From NCBI GenBank assembly GCA_018402345.1, contig JAGYIV010000007.1, positions 1-64,000 of the forward strand: a stretch of 64,000 nucleotides of DNA, given 5' to 3'. The notes under the pieces were generated by a model that saw only the letters and a list, made by a program, of their open reading frames with translations, was not told the origin of the DNA and searched no databases. Of this stretch, positions 1-22,301 are shown piece by piece. The translations under genes were made by a program, and so were the position numbers. Position 1 is the first letter of the stretch; the number at the start of each line of letters is the position of its first letter. This DNA comes from Terrimicrobiaceae bacterium. Its GTDB lineage: Bacteria; Verrucomicrobiota; Verrucomicrobiia; Chthoniobacterales; Terrimicrobiaceae.

Positions 1-39
1 TGGGTCCACCTCAAAATGACCCGAGGCAAAAAACCTGGA

Positions 40-535
40 GGGCGATGCGCCGTCAGCGCCGTGGTATCCGAGCCGAGCTTTCATTTACAAGGTAGGGGCG
101 GATCGCCGAGCGGCCCCAAGATTCAGGCGCAACGCGCCGCCAACCCAAAATCCACCATCCACCATCCACCATCCAAAATCTCCCGCCTCCTTCTCCCGCC
201 ACTGCATCACGCCGGAGTCGCCAAGCGCGTAGGAGGACTGTCATCTCCTGCCAATCCAAAATTCAAAATCCAAAATCCACCATTTGCTTCACCAACCCAC
301 CATCCCAAAACCCACCATTCAAAAGCCAAAATCCAAAATCTCCCGCCTCCTTCTCCCGCCCCTTTCATCTTTCTGCCTGCTTCGCTTCGCTACGGTTGGC
401 TCCCAGCCTACACATTCGACTTTCCCGCAGCCTATGCGCTCTCGCGCGGGTGTTCATACTTCTTACTTCTTACTTCGCTTCCCCCCTGTTGCAGTCTTTG
501 CGACAACCCTGGGTTCAGGATTCGTTGAAATGATC
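40..535. repeat. Long dispersed repeat, copy A
   Basis: A long stretch recurs at about 2683-3000. Shared blocks are the segment starting ggagggcgatgcgccgtcag, the tract around ggtaggggcggatcgccgag, and the tract containing ggttggctcccagcctacac through to cccctgttgcag. Copy A carries roughly 150 extra bases of heptamer repeats between the shared blocks. Together the copies bracket the DUF1016 and four-helix-bundle genes as direct repeats. A short open frame runs through it, but its composition follows the repeats and I do not call it a gene. Confidence 0.75.
145..350. repeat. Heptanucleotide tandem arrays (CCAAAAT/CCACCAT)
   Basis: Period-7 units such as ccaaaat, ccaccat and tcaaaat are strung together at about 155-180, 258-285 and 296-340, each run ending in ctcccgcctccttctcccgc. 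The exact 7-base period over several units is directly visible. Similar heptamer minisatellites are known in other phyla as short tandemly repeated sequences; here they cluster on both sides of the four-helix-bundle gene. Confidence 0.75.
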
Positions 536-549
536 TTTTCGCTATCAGA

Positions 550-700
550 AATCCACCATCCACCATCCACCATCCAAAATCTCCGCTCGTTACGCGTTAC
601 CAGCAACTCGCTACTGCGCCTTCGGCGCAATCCTCCTTCCTGCAAATCCTATCCTCCTGTCTAAAATTCACCCAAAATCCAAAATCAATATTCCGCTTCT
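550..700. repeat. Heptamer arrays of two families
   Basis: Positions 550-580 carry ccaccat x3 then ccaaaat. Positions 583-617 carry a second period-7 family which on the reverse strand reads tagcgag, taacgcg, taacgag. A further ccaaaat pair lies near 670-687, just before the DUF1016 gene. The second family recurs at 16445-16472. Confidence 0.65.
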
Positions 701-718
701 GCCTGACCATCAAATCTC

Positions 719-1864
719 ATGAACTTCGACCAACTCGTTGACCTTTGCCGCAAGACCCACGAGCAACTCCTGCTTGCGGCCAACCGCAGCATAGACACTC
801 ACCTCGTGGCTCGAAACTTCCTTTTTGGCCTCTATATCGTCCAATTCGAACAGGAGGGTGCGGATCGGGCTCGATATGGAAAACAAACACTCAAAGAGCT
901 TTCCAACGCCTTGAAGCCCTCCGCCAGTCGAGGTTTCTCCGTCGACAACCTCGAACTGATGCGGCGCTTTTATCTCGAATATCGCTCCGCCATTCTTCGC
1001 CCGCCAATTTCCGAGACACCATCCCGGAAATCCCTTTCCGACACTCCAGGGAAATCCGAGACGCTGTCTCGGATTTCTGCCGAAGCGATCACGGCCAACT
1101 TCGCAGCCAACGAACTGATAAGCCAGCTTCCCCGCCGCTTCACGCTCGGATGGTCCCACTATGTTGAGTTACTCACCATCGATGGTGCCGAAGAGCGCCG
1201 ATTCTACGAGATCGAAGCCGCCGCCAACCAATGGAGCGTGCGCAAGCTCCAACGCCAGATTGCCAGCTCGCTATACCAACGCCTCGCCCTCAGCCGAGAC
1301 AAGAATGAGATTCGCCGCCTGGCCAGCGAAGGGCAGGTCGTCGAAAAAGCCGCCGACCTTGTTAAAAATCCGCTTGTGCTCGAATTCCTGGGCCTCGCCG
1401 ACCATCCCAGCTACTCTGAAGATGACCTCGAATCCGCCATCATTAGCCAACTGGAATCCTTCTTGCTCGAACTCGGAAAAGGCTTTCTCTTCGAAGCCCG
1501 CCAAAAACGCTTCACCTTCGACAACGACCACTTTCGCGTCGACCTCGTTTTCTACAACCGCCTCCTGCGTTGCTATGTGCTCATCGACCTCAAGCGAGAC
1601 AAACTCACCCACCAAGACCTCGGGCAGATGCAAATGTATGTGAATTACTTCGATCGGCATGTGAAGTTGCCCGACGAGTCGCCTAGCGTCGGCATCCTCC
1701 TTTGCCACCGTAAAAACGATGCTCTGGTTGAACTCACTCTCCCGCCCGATACCAATATCTTCGCCTCGAAATACCAGCTCTACTTGCCGACCAAGGAAGA
1801 GTTCAAAGCCCGCCTGGAAAGCATCACCACCAGTTTGGACGATTCCCGCCATGCCGACAGATAA
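719..1864 (+). CDS. PDDEXK nuclease-like protein, DUF1016 (YhcG) family
   Basis: A 381-residue protein typical in length and order for DUF1016/YhcG: an N-terminal helical DUF1016_N part (about residues 1-180) and a C-terminal PD-(D/E)XK-like domain (about 230-355). Visible likely active-site residues are D275 in FRVDLVFYN and D290-x-K292 in IDLKRDK. The family is common near restriction-modification and mobile DNA and is predicted to be a nuclease. I keep the ATG at 719 because the protein then begins like its relatives. Residues about 97-120 are a Ser/Thr-rich stretch encoded by a DNA hairpin, described separately. The gene sits between heptamer arrays, with its own promoter not evident. Confidence 0.85.
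   Translation: MNFDQLVDLCRKTHEQLLLAANRSIDTHLVARNFLFGLYIVQFEQEGADRARYGKQTLKELSNALKPSASRGFSVDNLELMRRFYLEYRSAILRPPISETPSRKSLSDTPGKSETLSRISAEAITANFAANELISQLPRRFTLGWSHYVELLTIDGAEERRFYEIEAAANQWSVRKLQRQIASSLYQRLALSRDKNEIRRLASEGQVVEKAADLVKNPLVLEFLGLADHPSYSEDDLESAIISQLESFLLELGKGFLFEARQKRFTFDNDHFRVDLVFYNRLLRCYVLIDLKRDKLTHQDLGQMQMYVNYFDRHVKLPDESPSVGILLCHRKNDALVELTLPPDTNIFASKYQLYLPTKEEFKARLESITTSLDDSRHADR
1051..1077. repeat. Perfect 12-bp inverted repeat inside the DUF1016 gene
   Basis: Arms gaaatccgagac and gtctcggatttc are exact reverse complements separated by gct. The preceding 40 bases contain further partial copies (ccgagac, ggaaatccc), so this looks like an inserted palindromic mini-repeat read in frame as a linker between the two DUF1016 domains. 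Confidence 0.8.
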
Positions 1865-1922
1865 ACCCAACAGCCGCCTGCAAAAATACCGCTTCACCGG
1901 AAAAGGCCGCGCGGGCTGCGAA

Positions 1923-2043
1923 ATTTTGAATGAGCAATTTTGAATTCTGAATGAATCCACCATCCAACATTCAACATCCAGTCTCACCCCTGAAAATCCA
2001 TGACTCCATGAGGGAATTTTAAATTTTAAATGCTGAATTTTGA
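1923..2043. repeat. Divergent heptamer arrays abutting the start of the four-helix-bundle gene
   Basis: Period-7 units in reverse orientation (attttgaatga types) are followed by forward units (ccaacat, tcaacat) and then again by reverse units (tttaaat, tttgaat) that run directly into the ATG at 2044. The start codon lies within the last unit. Confidence 0.65.
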
Positions 2044-2397
2044 ATGAAAGAAGCGAACCCGATTTTAGAAATTAGCTATCGTTTCGCCCTCGATGTCACG
2101 GCGGCAGCAAGGATCATGCGCGAGCGTAAGGAATACGACCTTGCCTCCCAATTTTGGCGCTCCGGGACAAGCATCGGCGCGAATGTCGAAGAAGCCCAAG
2201 CCGCGCAAAGTCGGGCTGATTTCAAGTCCAAGATGGGAATCGCGGCGAAAGAGGCACGCGAAACCATCTACTGGCTCCGCTTGGCCCGCGACACTGGGAT
2301 TCTTGGCCCCAAGAATGCGGAAGACCTCCTGGCACAAGCTTCAAGCATTCAAAAAATCCTCACCTCCATTGTCAAAACCACCTCCGAAAATCCCTGA
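2044..2397 (+). CDS. Four helix bundle protein (S23/IVP family)
   Basis: 117 residues. The order of features matches the 23S-rRNA-intervening-sequence four-helix-bundle family: an N-terminal helix with SYRFALDV, the conserved turn WRSGTSIGANVEEAQ (about residues 38-52) and a later helix KEARETIYWLRLARDTG. Relatives form small all-helical oligomers and include the Avd accessory protein of diversity-generating retroelements; no reverse transcriptase is present here. The molecular role of free-standing members is not established. The gene is framed on both sides by heptamer arrays that touch its start and begin again within 20 bases of its stop. Confidence 0.85.
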   Translation: MKEANPILEISYRFALDVTAAARIMRERKEYDLASQFWRSGTSIGANVEEAQAAQSRADFKSKMGIAAKEARETIYWLRLARDTGILGPKNAEDLLAQASSIQKILTSIVKTTSENP

Positions 2398-2399
2398 CT

Positions 2400-2625
2400 C
2401 CAAGGGGGAAATTTTGAATGATCCCAAGGTCCCCAAACCCATAATCCAACATTCAACATCCCTCTTCATTCCAACATCGGCCGAAGGCCAATTTCCCATT
2501 CCGCCTTTCGAATTTCACCAACCCACCATTCAACATCCAAAATTCACCATTAGGCTTCTCCTCGCCCCAACCCACCATTCAAAATCCATAATTAAAAATC
2601 CAACATAAGCCAAAGTTCTCGGAAA
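2400..2625. repeat. Heptamer arrays downstream of the four-helix-bundle gene
   Basis: Units ccataat, ccaacat, tcaacat, ccaccat, ccaaaat and ccataat recur with period 7 at about 2440-2465, 2518-2550 and 2570-2608. No coding frame is supported here. Confidence 0.65.
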
Positions 2626-2682
2626 CTTCGAAGCCCGGAAAACTCCCAAATGAATCCAAAATCCACAATCTTCAAAAAATCC

Positions 2683-3000
2683 GGAGGGCGATGCGCCGTC
2701 AGCGCCGTGGTATCCGGAGCCGAGCTTTCATTTACAAGGTAGGGGCGGATCGCCGAGCGGCTCCCAAGATTCAGGCGCAACGCGCCGCCAACCCAAAATC
2801 CAAAATCCAAAATCCAAAATCTCCCGCCTCCTTCTCCCGCCCCTTTCATCCTTCCACCTGCTTCGCTACGGTTGGCTCCCAGCCTACACATTCGACTTTC
2901 CCGCAGCCTATGCGCTCTCGCGCGGGTGTTCCTACTTCATCCTTCTTACTTCTTACTTCGCTTCCCCCCTGTTGCAGCTTTTGCGACACCCCCCAACCGA
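2683..3000. repeat. Long dispersed repeat, copy B
   Basis: Near-identical to the shared blocks of copy A (40-535), in the same orientation, but with only a short ccaaaat run (about 2797-2821) between the blocks. Roughly 2.6 kb separates equivalent positions of the two copies. Confidence 0.75.
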
Positions 3001-3079
3001 GACTGCATGGAAATGATCACAGACAAAACGAACCCATCTGGAAGCAGCGAGCACTAGCATAGCCAAGAATCCCCACCCT

Positions 3080-3340
3080 ATGTGCCCTCAGCCCCCAATT
3101 TGGAACTCGATTTATAAAAATCTCTGTAAATTCCATGCGAACAAATGCCCGACCGCTCCTCCGCCTCCGGTCCCTTTGATTCTTGCGGGATGGGCGTTCA
3201 GTAGTGATGGGCAGAAAGCGACCCGCTGGCAGGATACCCTTGATTGGGTGCAAACCCATGGGGCACTCGATTTGATCCCAGAACTTTGCGAGTCCGATTT
3301 TTACGGGGCACCCAGAGCGCAAGCAGGGCCAGATTTATGA
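3080..3340 (+). CDS. Hypothetical protein, 86 aa
   Basis: A small protein with a coding-like core VPLILAGWAFSSDGQKATRW (residues 32-51) followed by LDWVQTHG and ELCESDFYG. I recall similar short unknown proteins in proteobacteria but cannot assign a function. No signal peptide or membrane segment. Its stop overlaps the next start by ATGA, so it is probably the first gene of the restriction-island transcript. Confidence 0.5.
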   Translation: MCPQPPIWNSIYKNLCKFHANKCPTAPPPPVPLILAGWAFSSDGQKATRWQDTLDWVQTHGALDLIPELCESDFYGAPRAQAGPDL

Positions 3341-4004
3341 GCAAGACAATCAAAACCACCCAAGTGGACGCCAATGTATACAACAGGCTCTGCGAAGTCG
3401 TTAAGGACGGGACATTTGTCAGCATTGATTTCTCTCCATGGCACAAAGGTTGTGACACTTGCCTTGATGCGACCTGCGATTGGCCTGAGCTGCAGGACGA
3501 GATGGAAGAATGGTATTACGAAAATATTAGCGAATTCGATGTCCATACCACGCTTTATTTAACACCAGAAATAACTAATGATCAACTGCTTTTTAAGATA
3601 TATACTGTATGGGATCGCAACTTTGACCAGTTTAGCGATCTGAGCAAAGAATGGGACGAGGAATTGTTTCAAGACTTTGTCTTCGATTTGCTGCCGAAAG
3701 CGATTAAAGAGAAGGCACCTTCAGAAAATCTGTGGGTTTCAGTTGATTTGGAATATGAACCTAAAAAACTATCCGTAAAGCAGTTTTCTGTGACTGATTC
3801 TGGCAAAAGCGCAAATATCTGGTAGGTGCATTATCGCCTGAAAATCTCGAGGCCGTCGGCAAATATGTCCTCGAATGGTGTCAAAAAAATCATGGGCCGC
3901 AGGACAACTTTTCGATTTCGATCGAGAATAATGAGGTTCGCGGCGTGGTTTCTGCCGGCGAGAGCGTCTCGAATTTAGTGGTTCCTAAGGAGGGAAAAGC
4001 ATGA
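3337..4004 (+). pseudogene. Hypothetical protein, frameshifted
   Basis: The first frame runs from the ATG at 3337 to a TAG at 3823-3825 (162 aa, acidic, ending GKSANIW). A second frame then continues as VGALSPENLEAVGKYVLEWC up to the TGA at 4002-4004, and the join works if one G is missing in ctggtaggt near 3822. The restored product would be about 222 aa. The function is not recognised. It overlaps its neighbours on both sides by ATGA, consistent with one operon. Confidence 0.55.
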
Positions 4005-4354
4005 CGATAACACTTCAACCTCTTGGCAAAGATTTGGGGGCTGTCTCGGCCCACATTTTCAATTTCAGGCGTTCTTTCCCGCTAATCTCCCATCCTGGAT
4101 TTCAGGAACTTATTCTTGGAATTAGCAAAATTGTCGAGGGCTCAACAGTAAAAGGCATTGTCATTGACCATACATCTTTCGGGGAGTTTAGAGCTTTCGG
4201 TTTAGTTGAAACCCTATTGATGGTTTTCCCAAAGTTCCATCGGCGAGGATATAGGCGGGCGGTTGTCTCACTTTTAAGGAAGAAACTCAGGTTTTTGTTT
4301 CGGCAACTTCGAATCCTGCAAGCCAAGCGTTTTTTAACATCCAATCCGCTCTGA
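4001..4354 (+). CDS. Hypothetical protein, probably frameshifted
   Basis: Begins at an ATGA overlap. The first about 70 residues read like a real protein (FPLISHPGFQELILGISKIV; KGIVIDHTSFGEF). The arginine-rich end after about position 4210 does not, whereas another frame from about 4263 reads CLTFKEETQVFVSATSNP and IPAYSTNRYRRLQDIAEKNN. I infer a frameshift near 4210-4260 and a true end near 4440. Function unknown. Confidence 0.45.
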   Translation: MTITLQPLGKDLGAVSAHIFNFRRSFPLISHPGFQELILGISKIVEGSTVKGIVIDHTSFGEFRAFGLVETLLMVFPKFHRRGYRRAVVSLLRKKLRFLFRQLRILQAKRFLTSNPL

Positions 4355-4399: not shown

Positions 4400-5504
4400 C
4401 AGAGAAAAACAACTGCCTCAAAAAAACCGTCAGCAGCTTGGCTGATCCGAGCCGAAGCGCGGTGAAGACGAAAACGCTGTCCTGTCGCGCGGCTTGGCGA
4501 TTATTGGCCACAGCGAGTTCCCGGATTTGAGCGGGCTCAAGAGCACCGACAAAATAGCAGCAGGCTACAAAGGTGACCCTGCCACACCCAAGTCTGTCAG
4601 CGCCCGCGCTGCCCAACTCGATAAGTTTGCGAATCAAGCGAAGATCGGGGATTTAGTTGCGCTTCCGCTCAAGCTGCAAAAAGGGATGGTCGCCCTGGGC
4701 TATATTTCTGGCCCTTACGCTTTCACTAAAATCAACGGCATAGGTCGGCACACGCGGCCAGTAGATTGGGTGATTCAAATCCCGCGAACATCCTTCGAGC
4801 AAGACCTGCTGGACTCCCTCGGTGCCTATAATACCGTCGCGCCAATCACCAGGAATGGCGCTTTGGACCGCCTCGCTGCCCTTGCGCAAGGAAAGCCTGA
4901 TCCGGGGCCGCCGAGCGGCGAGGAGTTTGTCACAGGCAGGGAACTTTAACGGGTAAAAACGAAGCCACTCGAACCCTCCGGTGACACCGACGAGGACGAA
5001 GGCTCATTCTCGCAGTTTGAAGATTTTAATACTCGTGCACGCGATCGTATCGAGCGGCATATACGGCACAAATTTCCTGCAGATATGCTCACTTCTCTGA
5101 TTGTCGAGATTCTGCGTGCGGATGGATATACCGTCGCAAACCTCGGGGGCAGTGGACCGGATGGCGGGCAGGATATCTTCGCTGCAAAAGGTCAATTTGG
5201 TTTTGAAGGGCCCACCATCGTTGCCCAAATCAAAGCCAGAAGCCAGCTGGGCGATGTCAAGGACCTGCGCGAGCTGACGGGAGTGATGAACAGCCGGCAT
5301 GCCACACACTGCCTTTTTGTTTCATGGAGCGGCCTCACACGGGCCGCTGAAAAAAGAACCCGCGAGCAATGGTTTCGAGGCCTCCGGCTCTGGCAATCCG
5401 TGGATGTGGTGGATGCACTTTTGCGCGTTTACGAAAAACTACCCGAAGAAATCCAGCTTCAGATCCCGTTGGAGAGGGTCTGGGTGCTCGTGGACAAAGA
5501 TTAA
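4400..5504 (+). pseudogene. Mrr-like restriction endonuclease with PUA/EVE-like N-terminus, broken
   Basis: The N-terminal part reads AAWLIRAEAR (about 4433-4462), then after a one-base shift GEDENAVLSRGLAIIGHSEF and later HTRPVDWVIQIPR, a PUA/EVE-like sensor region. The C-terminal part (5085-5504) is an Mrr-cat PDDEXK domain with GGSGPDGGQDIF and IVAQIKARSQ, giving D, Q-x-K type catalytic residues, then TRAAEKRTREQW. The two parts are in the same frame but separated by an in-frame TAA at 4947-4949. Mrr enzymes cut modified foreign DNA. The start is not resolved. Only 22 bases separate it from hsdM, so it belongs to the restriction operon. Confidence 0.7.
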
Positions 5505-5526
5505 AAACAACAACCAAACCACAACT

Positions 5527-7598
5527 ATGAACGACACCTCAAAATTCAACGCCGTTGTCAGCTTCCTGTGGTCGATAGCGGACCTCCTCAACGGCGCTTT
5601 CAAGAAAAGCGAGTTTCAAAAAATTATCCTGCCTTTTACCGTGCTGCGGCGGCTGGATTATGCGCTGGAGAAAACCAAGGACAAGGTGCTGGAGGGCCGA
5701 GCGCTCTCTCAAAGGGCAGGGCCTTGGCAGCCGCCACGGCCAGCTCTGCCGCGCGGCGGGATATGCTTTCTACGACAGCTCGGCTACCACAGAGCCTCCG
5801 ATGACACGGTAGCCTCGCGGTACGCGTTGCGGAACCTCCGCCAGTATGTGATGGGCTTCTCCCCGAATGTTCGGGAAATCTTCGCCGCGTTTAATTTCGA
5901 CGACTCCATCCGCGACCTCGATCGCGTGAATCTGCTCTACCTGCTCATGGAGCGGTTCAATGAGAAGAGCAGAGATCGACCTTCGCCCCTCCCCGCCCTC
6001 ACCGAACCACGAGATGGGTTATGTCTTTGAGCACCTGCTCCGCAAATTCAACGAGGCCTTGAATGAAAACCCTGGTGAACACTTCACGCCCCGCGATGCG
6101 ATTCGCCTCATGGTCGATCTGGTGCTCATGCTGGATTCCCTGCTCGGCACGGGTGAGGGCGTGGCCCGCACCGTGAACGACTGCTGCTGCGGCACCGGCG
6201 GTATCCTGTCTATCACTAAGGATCACATCCTTGAGATTAACCCGCAGGCCAAGGTCTTCCTCTATGGCCAGGAGCTGAACCCGTTCACTTGGGCCATTGC
6301 CCGCGCCGACATGCTCATTCTTGAACCAGAGGGCAAGGACGCGGAAACATCAAGCTCGGCAGCACCCTCTCCAACGACCAGCTCGCGGACATGCGCTTCG
6401 ACCTCCAGTTCGTGAATCCTCCCTATGGCTACGAGTGGAGCAAGGACTACCGAGGCTGTCATGGCAGGAGGCCGCCAGGGCTTTGATGGCCGCTTTGGAG
6501 CCGGGACCCCGCGCAAGTCGGATGGCCAGATGCTCTTTTTGCAGCACCTCATCGCCCGCATGAACGACCCGGAGGAATCCCAGAGCCACATCGGCATTAT
6601 TCTCAACGGCTCGCCGCTCTTCACCGGCGGGGCAGACTCGGGCGAATCGGAGATCCGACGCTGGATATTTGGAGAACGACTGGCTGGAAGCCATCGTCGC
6701 CCTGCCTGCAGCAGATTTTCTACAACACCGGCATCGGCACCTACATCTGGCTCTTGAGCAACCGCAAGCCAGCTGCCCACCGGGGCAAGGTCATGTTGGT
6801 CGATGCCTCTGGTGAGGAATTCTGGTCGCCCATGTCCAAGAGCCTCGGCAGCAAACGCCGCGAAATCACCGAAACCCACAAACAGGCCATTCTCCAGTTG
6901 GTCAAGGCCCGCAAGGAAGGCCCGCATGTGAAGATCTTCGACACCACGGATTTCGGCTACCGCGAAATCAAGGTGCTGCGACCGCTTAAGCTCCGCTTCG
7001 AGGTCACTGACCGAGTCGCTCGCCCGTCTCGACACTCAGTCGGCCTTCAGGAATCTGGCCGTGAGCAAAAAGAAAGCCGCTGCCGAGCAGAAGCGCGAGG
7101 AGCAGGAGGGCCAAGCCCTGCAAGCCGAGATCCGCGCCGCCCTGCAAACGCTCGCAGGACAGACCTACATGAACCGCGATAAGTTCACCGCCGCTCTGGA
7201 GGCCGTGCTCAAGAAGGCCGGACTGAAGCTCAAGGCTCCCGTGCTCAAAGCGATCTTGGCAGGCATCGGCGAGCGTGATGATGCGGCCGAGATCTGCCGC
7301 GACAGCCAAGGAAATCCCGAGCCTGATTCTGACCTGAACGATACCGAGAATGTGCCTCTCAAGGAATCCATCGAGTCCTACTTCGCCCGCGAGGTCACGC
7401 CGCATGTGCCCGACGCGTGGATTGATACCGCCTACTGCGATGCCGAAGGACGGCAAGGTGGGGCGCGTGGGCTACGAGATCCCGTTCAATCGACATTTTT
7501 ATGTCTTCCAACCGCCCCGCACCCTCAGCGCGATTGATACCGACCTGAAAGCCACCACCGACCGTATTCTCACGATGATTGGGGGGCTGACCCAATGA
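5527..7598 (+). pseudogene. hsdM: Type I restriction-modification DNA methylase HsdM, multiply frameshifted
   Basis: The intact start MNDTSKFNAVVSFLWSIADL and the SAM-dependent N6-adenine methylase hallmarks are spread over several frames: GYVFEHLLRKFNEALNENP, FTPRDAIRLMVDL, NDCCCGTGGILS (motif I-like), [14 protein letters not shown] (catalytic NPPY), [10 protein letters not shown], and a C-terminal coiled region KKKAAAEQKREEQ. At least seven frame changes are needed, around 5700, 5800, 5975, 6350, 6470, 6665, 6710, 7015 and 7440, to read about 690 residues. As written the gene cannot make a working protein. Its stop overlaps hsdS by ATGA. Confidence 0.85.
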
Positions 7599-19924: not shown

Positions 19925-20053
19925 GTGATTTCCAGTCTCTGTTGAGTGGGAAGACACTCAGTGGCGAGTGATTTTTAGTCGCCGTCGAGGGGAAGGATAC
20001 TCAGTGACGAGTGGTTTTCAGTCTCCATCGAGTGGGAGGAGACACAATGACGA
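19925..20053. repeat. Three tandem copies of a 43-bp repeat
   Basis: Copies start at 19925, 19968 and 20011, each beginning gtg(a/g)ttt and ending near gtg(g/a)cga, with internal agtcNccNtcgagNggNag. A partial fourth copy (gtgaatg) follows. The copies have diverged, so this is not a CRISPR array. It lies in the non-coding stretch between the Smr and PIN regions. Confidence 0.75.
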
Positions 20054-20112
20054 GTGAATGTTACTCATCACTCCATAGCGGGGCACTCGATGCTGATTGA
20101 ATTTGAGTCGAG

Positions 20113-20165
20113 GTTGTCTCAAATCCACGCAACGTTGTCTCAACTCTTCGTCTCCGTTGTCTCAA
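20113..20165. repeat. Triple gttgtctcaa iteration
   Basis: The 10-mer gttgtctcaa occurs at 20113, 20134 and 20156, spaced 21-22 bases (two helical turns). It could be a set of protein-binding iterons or a small tandem repeat. No gene covers it. Confidence 0.55.
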
Positions 20166-20395
20166 TTGTGAGTCTTGTTTGGCATATCCTTGTCTGGCAG
20201 AGGACAAAAAAAGTCCGTGCGCCTCTGGGAAGCGCGGGTCGGTGTCAACACGGCCGGGACGGCCATGCCCCCCTATTTGTAGCGTGGCGGCGTCGAAGCG
20301 TAGGGTCAGCATCCCGCCTGACCTCGAAGGAATTCCAGACGCAGGCGAGAGGCCCACGCTACGATCCGGAACATTGGTCGTGTCATCAACTTGGC

Positions 20396-21221: not shown

Positions 21222-22301
21222 CTACGCCAAGGTGTCGTCGAGTGCGGCGAGGAGGGTGTCGATGGACTCCGGGGTTTCGTCGCCCATGTTCGAGAGGCGG
21301 AAGGTTTTCCCTTTGATTTTGCCGTAGCCGCCGTCGATGGCGATGCGGTGTTTTTCGCGGAGGCGTTTGACCCACTCGGCGATATCGATCTCGCGGTTGT
21401 TTTTCACGCAGGTGAGTGAGAGGGAGCGGTAGCCTTCCGGGGCGAAGAATTCGAATCCGCGGGCCTTGACCCAGTCGTGGACCTTGGCATTGAGGGCCGC
21501 GTGGCGGGCATGGCGGGCTTCGACGCCTTCGGTGAAGATGTCGTCGAGCTTGGATTCCAGCGCGTAGATGAGGGAAATGCAGGGCGTGCTGGGTGTCATG
21601 TCCTGCTCCTGGTTTTTGGCGAATTCAACGAAGTCGAAATAGTAGCCGCGATCCTTCTGCGTGGCCGCGCGGGCCATGGCGCGCTCGGAGACCGAGAAGA
21701 GGGCGAGTCCCGGAGGGAGCGCGAGGGCCTTCTGGCTGCCGGTGAGGAGGACATCGATACCGAGTTCGTCCATCGGGATCGGTTGGGTGGAAAACGAGGA
21801 AACCGAGTCGACGATGAACATGACCTCGGGAAACTCGCGCATGACGGCGGCGATGTCGGGGAGGGGGTTCCTCACGCCGCAGGAGGTTTCGTTGTGAATG
21901 AGCGTGAAGGTATCGAAGCCGCCTTGGGAGAGCTTTTCACGGATGAGGTCGGGAGTGATCGCCTGACCCCACTCGACCTGGAGCGCCTCCGCGTCCTTGC
22001 CGCAGCGCTTGCTGACATCGAACCATTTGTCGGAAAACGCCCCGCACATGCCATTGAGCACCTTCTTTTGGGTGAGATTGCGGATCGCGCCTTCCATGAC
22101 GCCCCACGCCGAGGACGTGGAGAGAAAGACCGGGCGGTTGGTGCCGAAGAGGGTCTGGAGGCGTGGTTGCATGCCGCCGTAGAGTTTTTTGAAGTCGCCG
22201 CTGCGGTGGCCGATCATGGGGCGGCACATCGCCTTGTAGGTTTTTTCGGAGACCTCGATCGGGCCTGGAATGAAAAGTTTGATATGGGATGACTCGCTCA
22301 T
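21222..22301 (-). CDS. Class V aminotransferase (alanine/serine-glyoxylate aminotransferase-like)
   Basis: 359 aa from MSESSHIKLFIPGPIEVSEK. Fold-type I PLP enzyme: the substrate loop MIGHRSGDFKKLY near the start, the PLP aspartate in FIVDSVSSFS (D165), and the Schiff-base lysine K191 in LLTGSQKALALPPG. Close families are alanine-glyoxylate and serine-pyruvate aminotransferase; substrate cannot be fixed from sequence alone. A longer upstream frame exists but is antisense to holA and is not coding. Divergent from holA, with about 87 bases between starts. Confidence 0.85.
   Translation of the reverse strand: MSESSHIKLFIPGPIEVSEKTYKAMCRPMIGHRSGDFKKLYGGMQPRLQTLFGTNRPVFLSTSSAWGVMEGAIRNLTQKKVLNGMCGAFSDKWFDVSKRCGKDAEALQVEWGQAITPDLIREKLSQGGFDTFTLIHNETSCGVRNPLPDIAAVMREFPEVMFIVDSVSSFSTQPIPMDELGIDVLLTGSQKALALPPGLALFSVSERAMARAATQKDRGYYFDFVEFAKNQEQDMTPSTPCISLIYALESKLDDIFTEGVEARHARHAALNAKVHDWVKARGFEFFAPEGYRSLSLTCVKNNREIDIAEWVKRLREKHRIAIDGGYGKIKGKTFRLSNMGDETPESIDTLLAALDDTLA

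Follow-up and report, generated by a model that had tools for sequence, protein, structure and literature searches.

At positions 145-2820 of a contig of a Terrimicrobiaceae bacterium (assembly GCA_018402345.1, contig JAGYIV010000007.1), short tandem arrays of seven-base units crowd around a gene of the S23 family, named after the proteins encoded in intervening sequences (IVS) of 23S rRNA, which raises the question of whether these arrays belong to the S23 gene or merely lie beside it. The stretch analysed, hereafter the window, comprises 64,000 nucleotides and forms the start of contig 1 of a genome of 3.14 Mb in 17 contigs. An earlier reading of its letters (the original prediction) had linked the S23-type protein with the spread or upkeep of the arrays. 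Comparison with S23 loci of many other genomes suggested that S23 gene and arrays together constitute a widespread, compact and probably mobile single-gene element with inverted ends built of arrays, which would generalise the 23S rRNA IVS; we give this reading a probability of roughly 0.6.

The surroundings of 80 S23 loci from named genomes of many phyla were scanned in a period-neutral way and the arrays were binned by their distance to S23. These loci were the best 80 of 586 confirmed ones and were obtained with one profile-derived peptide pattern, so that typical S23 proteins are over-represented. Within 150 bp of S23, 44 period-7 arrays were found (1.84 per kb), none at 150-300 bp, and the density far from the gene was 0.076 per kb at 2.4-4 kb and 0.041 per kb at 4-6 kb. 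Period 8 peaked as well (10 arrays within 150 bp, 0.42 per kb), each of the remaining periods from 3 to 12 contributed at most one array within this distance, and period 14 echoed period 7. Arrays were present under 14 of the 19 phylum labels and their units were highly varied.

A larger set added loci from the window's own phylum, drawn from the best-scoring part of the S23 list; 192 of 199 distinct S23 genes were counted, seven with less than 200 bp on one side being dropped. A 7- or 8-mer array lay within 260 bp of 110 of the 192 genes and in none of 384 mononucleotide-shuffled windows, and windows at least 1.2 kb away from S23 held an array of any period in 4 of 237 cases. Under an equal rule (arrays within 250 bp, same genome sample) arrays were found at 17 of 35 S23 genes, 2 of 30 YhcG genes and 1 of 30 PIN genes. 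Random 20-kb stretches contained three period-7 arrays in a total of 380 kb from S23-bearing genomes and none in 400 kb from S23-free genomes. The arrays are specific to S23 flanks when compared with the YhcG and PIN families and with distant DNA. A cross-phylum count of this kind had been proposed as a check of the original prediction and turned out in its favour, arrays being far commoner at S23 than at control genes or in distant DNA. The window's genome alone had hinted that arrays mark mobile or defence genes in general, as they occur there near YhcG, RhuM, KilA-N, ORF6N and Fic_N genes; this was rejected on the YhcG and PIN counts across the phylum.

The arrangement of the arrays proved as characteristic as their position. 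Among the 192 S23 genes, 45 carried arrays on both flanks; the period was equal on the two sides in all 45, and the inverted match between the sides was better than the direct match in 40. Read on the gene strand, the upstream array held more G than C in 68 of 76 cases and the downstream array more C than G in 71 of 79. With equal periods, fixed polarity and varied units, period and polarity appear as the constants of these loci, whereas the letters are free. These data bear on the simplest alternative, namely that the arrays are ordinary simple sequence repeats (SSRs) of intergenic DNA produced by slippage, heptamers being generally over-represented, and that S23 is an incidental neighbour. 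An over-representation of heptamers ascribed to slippage is indeed reported in the available text of PMC4692102, which takes it from an earlier survey, and arrays without S23 do exist. However, slippage predicts neither inverted pairs of equal period nor a fixed strand polarity, and it does not fit the scarcity of arrays in the control flanks (3 of 60 against 17 of 35 for S23) and in random stretches (three period-7 arrays in 780 kb). We consider it highly improbable as an explanation.

The inheritance of the unit was followed within and between genomes. In genomes with several array-bearing S23 genes (G017, G131 and G077) the units, and even the periods, differed among the S23 genes, and related S23 genes of different genomes shared a unit. 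The unit is tied to the S23 gene and not just to the genome, and a genome-wide signature as the sole rule was rejected, since the S23 genes of one genome differ in unit and period. Arrays of the same unit were found at several loci of genome G080, so both levels, that of the genome and that of the S23 gene, exist. On a protein tree of 109 of the 110 array-bearing S23 genes (those of at least 80 aa), the period (7 or 8) changed 15 times, as compared with 22.7 times in shuffles, and none of 500 shuffles gave a number as low.

The sites occupied by S23 were examined at operon junctions, which were chosen by eye, and thus non-randomly, and checked with family models. The following junctions were recognised:

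L093: S23 between nuoC and nuoD
L140: S23 between ruvA and ruvB
L067: S23 between nuoF and nuoG
L102: S23 between pglZ and brxL of a BREX system
L099: S23 between an acyl-CoA dehydrogenase gene and a 3-hydroxyisobutyrate dehydrogenase (HIBADH) gene

In several loci the upstream gene was seen by eye to end in a stop codon that lies within the first array unit or abuts it. On a cyanobacterial plasmid, S23 was located between the two genes for ribonucleotide reductase, in the opposite orientation. In total, 42 plasmid records with S23 were found, mainly cyanobacterial, and a search of 50,697 phage records gave one weak match. On plasmids 1 and 2 of Calothrix brevissima (L374 and L375), S23 lies between a phage-type integrase gene and two hypothetical genes; the gene order is identical, so that two plasmids of one strain share an S23 block.

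The nuoF/nuoG junction of the G080 family allowed occupied and empty sites to be compared. Of 41 genomes searched 40 matched, and 30 loci were analysed, in addition to L230, which is the same site as L301. S23 was present at seven loci from several genera, six of them with an array by score. Eleven loci were empty, with a short spacer of 32-55 nt from the stop codon to the aligned nuoG, and 11 carried an S23-less insert of 120-145 nt over this stretch; the last one (L309) held another insert. Among the S23-less inserts, seven of 11 showed an RNA folding z-score of -2.5 or below against shuffles and only one had a 7/8-mer array by the score, so that they may belong to other families. The units of the S23-bearing copies were of the AGGAGTC type in G080, G146, G166 and G150 and of the GAATCCA type in G075 and G145, and the predicted RNA pairing of the array arms was kept in all seven copies though the units differ. 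The change of the unit in both arms at an orthologous site would be either compensatory change or joint replacement of the arms. The distribution of the period on the S23 tree together with this joint change of both flanks fits an upkeep of the arrays by S23, and it fits just as well a passive element in which RNA complementarity is selected. Along the nuo region of G080, several period-7 array sites were seen (L334, G080:C1:15000-34900), only one pair of which frames S23; the arrays near 21433 and 21533 have a different unit and are inverted with respect to each other.

The same junction is relevant for two further explanations. According to one, the array hairpins are independent elements of the miniature inverted-repeat transposable element (MITE) or REP type, moved by another enzyme, and S23 is a captured passenger. 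The S23-less inserts at 11 of 30 nuoF/nuoG junctions, seven of them with strong predicted folding, would agree with this, as would the same-unit arrays elsewhere in the nuo region of G080 and the arrays near YhcG, RhuM, KilA-N and ORF6N genes in the window's genome. Yet most of the S23-less nuo inserts lack period 7 or 8 and may represent other families, S23 is the recurrent gene at the arrays while YhcG and PIN are not, and unit and period follow the S23 lineage across genomes. We regard a captured S23 gene as rather unlikely.

According to the other, S23 is a resident functional gene that does not move, and the inverted arrays are a selected hairpin serving expression or autoregulation. The ratio of nonsynonymous to synonymous substitution (dN/dS) of S23 was 0.01-0.10 between genomes (11 pairs with estimable dS), which indicates that the protein is maintained under strong purifying selection, as expected of a resident gene; its insertion between nuoF and nuoG in seven genomes of several genera, with the stem kept while the unit differs, would suit it as well. 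The insertions are nevertheless scattered over unrelated operons, 23 of the 30 nuoF/nuoG loci lack S23, and single genomes hold several divergent S23 genes with different units. Moreover, the element proposed here differs in presence between sister species and has a duplicate of 99.4% identity elsewhere, in unrelated surroundings, as detailed below for the window, which makes a purely resident gene unlikely in our view.

In the window, arrays were located with Tandem Repeats Finder (TRF) and a unit pattern. The features of the array region are as follows:

145-179, plus strand: array CCAAAAT (CCACCAT)3 CCAAAAT (TRF and unit pattern)
256-283, plus strand: array CCAAAAT TCAAAAT CCAAAAT CCACCAT (TRF and unit pattern)
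326-339: period-7 array (TRF/unit pattern)
553-580, plus strand: array (CCACCAT)3 CCAAAAT (TRF and unit pattern)
672-685: period-7 array (TRF/unit pattern)
719-1864, plus strand: YhcG/DUF1016 PDDEXK nuclease gene (PF06250, E 8.1e-52; PF17761, E 3.3e-30)
1907-2636, plus strand: proposed S23 element, borders approximate (homology to the second copy and gap in sister genome G125)
1921-1956, minus strand: GAATTTT-type units, opposite to the CCAAAAT arrays, first copy (by eye)
1957-1977, plus strand: array CCACCAT CCAACAT TCAACAT (unit pattern)
2012-2046, minus strand: GAATTTT-type units up to the S23 start codon (by eye; strict pattern 2016-2029)
2044-2397, plus strand: S23 / 23S rRNA-intervening-sequence-protein gene, 117 aa, four-helix bundle family (PF05635)
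2439-2459, plus strand: array CCATAAT CCAACAT TCAACAT, 3′ of S23 (unit pattern)
2523-2550, plus strand: array CCACCAT TCAACAT CCAAAAT TCACCAT (unit pattern)
2572-2592, plus strand: array CCACCAT TCAAAAT CCATAAT (unit pattern)
2793-2820, plus strand: array of four CCAAAAT units (TRF score 58 and unit pattern)

The protein encoded at 2044-2397 matched PF05635 over residues 7-107 (E 6.6e-24; 84.6 bits against a curated cut-off of 33.8) and the solved structure PDB 2rld (phmmer, E 1.7e-22). Both TRF and the unit pattern confirmed the predicted period-7 arrays around this gene, which are of the CCAAAAT/CCACCAT kind. The three-unit pattern YYAHMATYYAHMATYYAHMAT gave 40 overlapping matches in the whole genome of 3.14 Mb whereas the reversed control gave six; of the 40, 14 lay at 145-2820 of the window and 18 at the second S23 copy on contig 4 (C4:651594-652660). 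The original prediction let the array stretch extend from 145 to 2625; the stretch was indeed seen, but its true end is later, as the array at 2793-2820 is part of it. Of the arrays that it placed before S23, those at 145-685 precede YhcG, which separates them from S23; the S23 element lies just 3′ of YhcG. The switch of orientation at the S23 gene was recovered by eye, opposite-strand GAATTTT-type units reaching the ATG at 2044, and this start codon overlaps a unit as had been claimed. A short GAATTTT-type stretch is also present between the S23 stop codon and the downstream CCAACAT-type array. Since the units are degenerate, the S23 gene of the window was scored as having no array by the strict survey score, which the contig-4 copy passes.

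The two S23 copies of this genome were compared with each other and with the sister genome G125. Across 650 bp, the contig-4 gene (C4:651902-652204) with its surroundings showed 95% identity to the contig-1 element, rising to 99.4% in the gene core; homology begins at window position 1907, runs to 2543 and continues in broken pieces to 2665. The two copies follow different YhcG genes, whose proteins share 30% identity, and occupy unrelated sites. In G125 both YhcG genes are located side by side. This genome keeps the window flanks 698-1908 and 2637-2807 without 1909-2636: the YhcG gene of 719-1864 is 95% identical there and the S23 element is absent. At the second YhcG gene, the G125 sequence departs near the start of the contig-4 element. 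Taken together, the duplicate and the absence of both copies from the sister genome are the strongest evidence here and point to recent movement. Furthermore, the array-bearing stretch 3′ of S23 differs in length and units between the two copies. The original prediction had looked to differences between strains in array length and gene presence; here, array content varied between 99% identical S23 copies of one genome, and both copies were missing from the sister species.

Other repeats accompany the arrays of this genome. Long direct repeats that hold heptamer arrays pair window positions 27-200 with 2673-2841 and 309-509 with 2790-2992 (89-93% identical). The stretch at about 88-139 recurs at about 20 places in G125, which suggests a further dispersed repeat family nested with the arrays. 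The remaining array places of the window's genome (L036, C4:639500-659449; L037, C5:1-12000; L038, C7:48000-60078) have YhcG, RhuM, KilA-N, ORF6N, Abi_2 and Fic_N genes as neighbours. The array places on contigs 1, 4, 5 and 7 are close to contig ends, as if the assembly had been broken by repeats. Elsewhere in the window, overlapping same-strand frames at about 5085-7540 resemble by eye a broken type I restriction-modification gene, and a 43-base tandem repeat of 3.1 copies lies at 19925-20175 beside a 21/22-base repeat.

The S23 protein was analysed by structure modelling of a typical family member (L043, pLDDT 97), which stands in for the window protein. The model matched the solved S23 proteins 2gsc (TM 0.96) and 2rld, followed by Avd of the Bordetella phage retroelement (4dwl, TM 0.84, E 0.013, probability 1.0), and it also matched the Avd chains of the retroelement complex (8ube and 8ub7). 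The fold shared with Avd, on which the original prediction had based its proposal, was accordingly recovered with Foldseek (TM 0.80-0.84 and probability 1.0 to 4dwl and the chains of the diversity-generating retroelement (DGR) complex). The predicted link between S23 and arrays is real and general across phyla, but the analogy to DGRs stops at the fold, 58 of 100 S23-bearing genomes of the phylum sample being without a detectable reverse transcriptase. By hand count, RVT_1 was found in 42 of 100 S23-bearing and 8 of 45 S23-free genomes of the phylum sample. A reverse transcriptase as obligatory partner was rejected, as some of the 58 genomes without RVT_1 have clear arrays; an RVT_1 match was absent from G017, G026, G075 and G077, all of which possess array-framed S23. 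In the window's genome, the only RVT_1 match (C4:587099-587734, in a 467-aa frame) is some 65 kb away from the S23 copy on contig 4. A Y1 transposase was likewise rejected as partner, Y1_Tnp being absent from G017 and G026 despite their S23 arrays. In the profile search, S23 (PF05635) was the only gene of the element, with no match to a transposase or Y1_Tnp.

These observations suggest the following model. The window would contain a representative of a selfish element that is very widespread. This element would consist of an S23 gene between inverted arrays of 7-base, less often 8-base, units and would settle between the genes of operons; its constants are the period and the strand polarity, with the G-rich strand before the gene and the C-rich strand after it. 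It would be carried on the transcript of the host operon, in which its two array ends may anneal into a long RNA stem that leaves the S23 frame as the loop; RNase III could then cut this stem, as has been published for the 23S rRNA IVS. An insertion would be tolerable because the array ends fold together and are cut. The S23 protein, a putative pentamer with the Avd fold, may bind the hairpin of its own arrays, in RNA or in DNA form, and join in copying it. Arrays without S23, such as those near YhcG in the window and those at other nuo junctions, would be remnants or non-autonomous derivatives, and the 23S rRNA IVS with an S23 frame would be the same element sited in an rRNA gene. A bolder version, which we offer only tentatively, is that S23 is the pentameric Avd-like RNA/DNA-binding protein of a new class of single-gene mobile elements and either builds its own 7- or 8-base array ends or copies them, the protein lineage setting the period; such elements might move via a hairpin RNA or a single strand with neither transposase nor reverse transcriptase of their own and might have seeded many heptamer arrays as well as the rRNA IVS.

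Several observations weigh against a mobile S23 element. At the threshold used, 82 of 192 S23 genes lacked an array, among them the window copy and 18 of 32 Bacteroidota loci, so arrays are not universal, and five of the 45 two-sided loci were not inverted. Conversely, arrays without S23 occur in the same genomes, for instance at several sites of the G080 nuo region, and S23 is thus not required at each site. Near-copies contribute to the clustering of the period on the S23 tree, and host taxonomy may explain part of it. The near-identical pair of the window's genome is the single one in the sample and could have been copied by recombination between shared arrays; most insertions look old, and the S23 copies at nuoF/nuoG may be simply inherited. 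No target-site duplication was seen, the borders being fuzzy and, between empty and occupied nuoF/nuoG sites, too diverged for one to be defined. Co-directional placement of S23 (61 of 85) was no stronger than that of YhcG (17 of 25), and on these counts, together with PIN (8 of 15), an orientation bias as an S23 property was rejected. Finally, neither a transposase nor a reverse transcriptase occurs consistently.

To our knowledge, there is no agreed cause for the over-representation of heptamers among the simple repeats of bacterial genomes, and we know of no established origin or protein function for those intervening sequences of rRNA that carry an S23 frame. Should S23 genes prove to be mobile, with ends made of heptamer arrays, both may have one source with a testable protein. 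The S23 genes in cas, BREX and respiratory operons would then be insertions and not functional partners, which would change the reading of such gene neighbourhoods, and RNA cleavage would be predicted in polycistronic mRNAs.

In REP/REPIN-RAYT systems, a gene is located between short inverted repeats and gene-less copies of the repeats occur elsewhere in the genome. The S23 loci resemble them in both respects, S23 lying between inverted repeats and S23-less arrays elsewhere. In contrast to the proteins of these systems, however, S23 folds as a four-helix bundle and has neither the HUH transposase fold nor a Y1_Tnp match, and its repeats are 7/8-mer arrays of varying sequence instead of conserved palindromes. 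REP/REPIN-RAYT systems are treated in PMC2817692. With DGRs the S23 protein shares the fold of Avd (4dwl and 8ube, TM 0.82-0.84), but the S23 element lacks a reverse transcriptase, and unlike an insertion sequence or transposon it encodes no transposase. Bacterial heptamer SSRs, such as GGGAATC of Xanthomonas (PMC4692102) and TAACTGA of Beggiatoaceae (PMC4679880), share with the S23 elements the intergenic arrays of period 7; the available text of both papers mentions neither S23 nor four-helix proteins, and that of PMC4692102 describes heptamer arrays as generally without association to mobile elements. S23 genes have also been noted in other contexts: S23_IVP frames are reported in 16S and 23S rRNA inserts of candidate phyla radiation (CPR) bacteria (PMC11270868, available part), and 18 S23 genes within cas loci are called an interesting associated function in the accessible part of PMC3936711; on our reading they may be operon insertions. 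Within the literature covered, which excluded subscription papers, no work linking S23 genes outside rRNA to heptamer arrays was found, and the only one found on IVS and heptamers combined concerns Coxiella burnetii (PMC4990558). According to the accessible text of this paper, the 23S rRNA IVS contains an S23 frame whose start codon is preceded by three heptamers in tandem, or by two in other strains; its inverted termini pair into a stem of 28 bp, and RNase III excises it. The paper also cites older ideas that IVS are remnants of transposition or mobile elements whose frame serves mobility. It mentions direct heptamers upstream only and, in that text, states neither that the inverted ends are arrays nor that such arrays occur beyond rRNA. 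As in the IVS, the S23 frame of the elements described here is enclosed by inverted ends that are complementary to each other (seen at 40 of the 45 two-sided loci, with stems predicted for all seven nuo elements); the window element shows this in degenerate form only. The elements differ from the IVS, which lies inside a helix of 23S rRNA, by their position between protein genes, and an 18-base core motif of 23S rRNA was absent from the S23 loci examined, including window positions 1-4320. Heptamers upstream of S23 were already known from the 23S rRNA IVS of Coxiella burnetii, and this is here extended to S23 genes located between protein genes.

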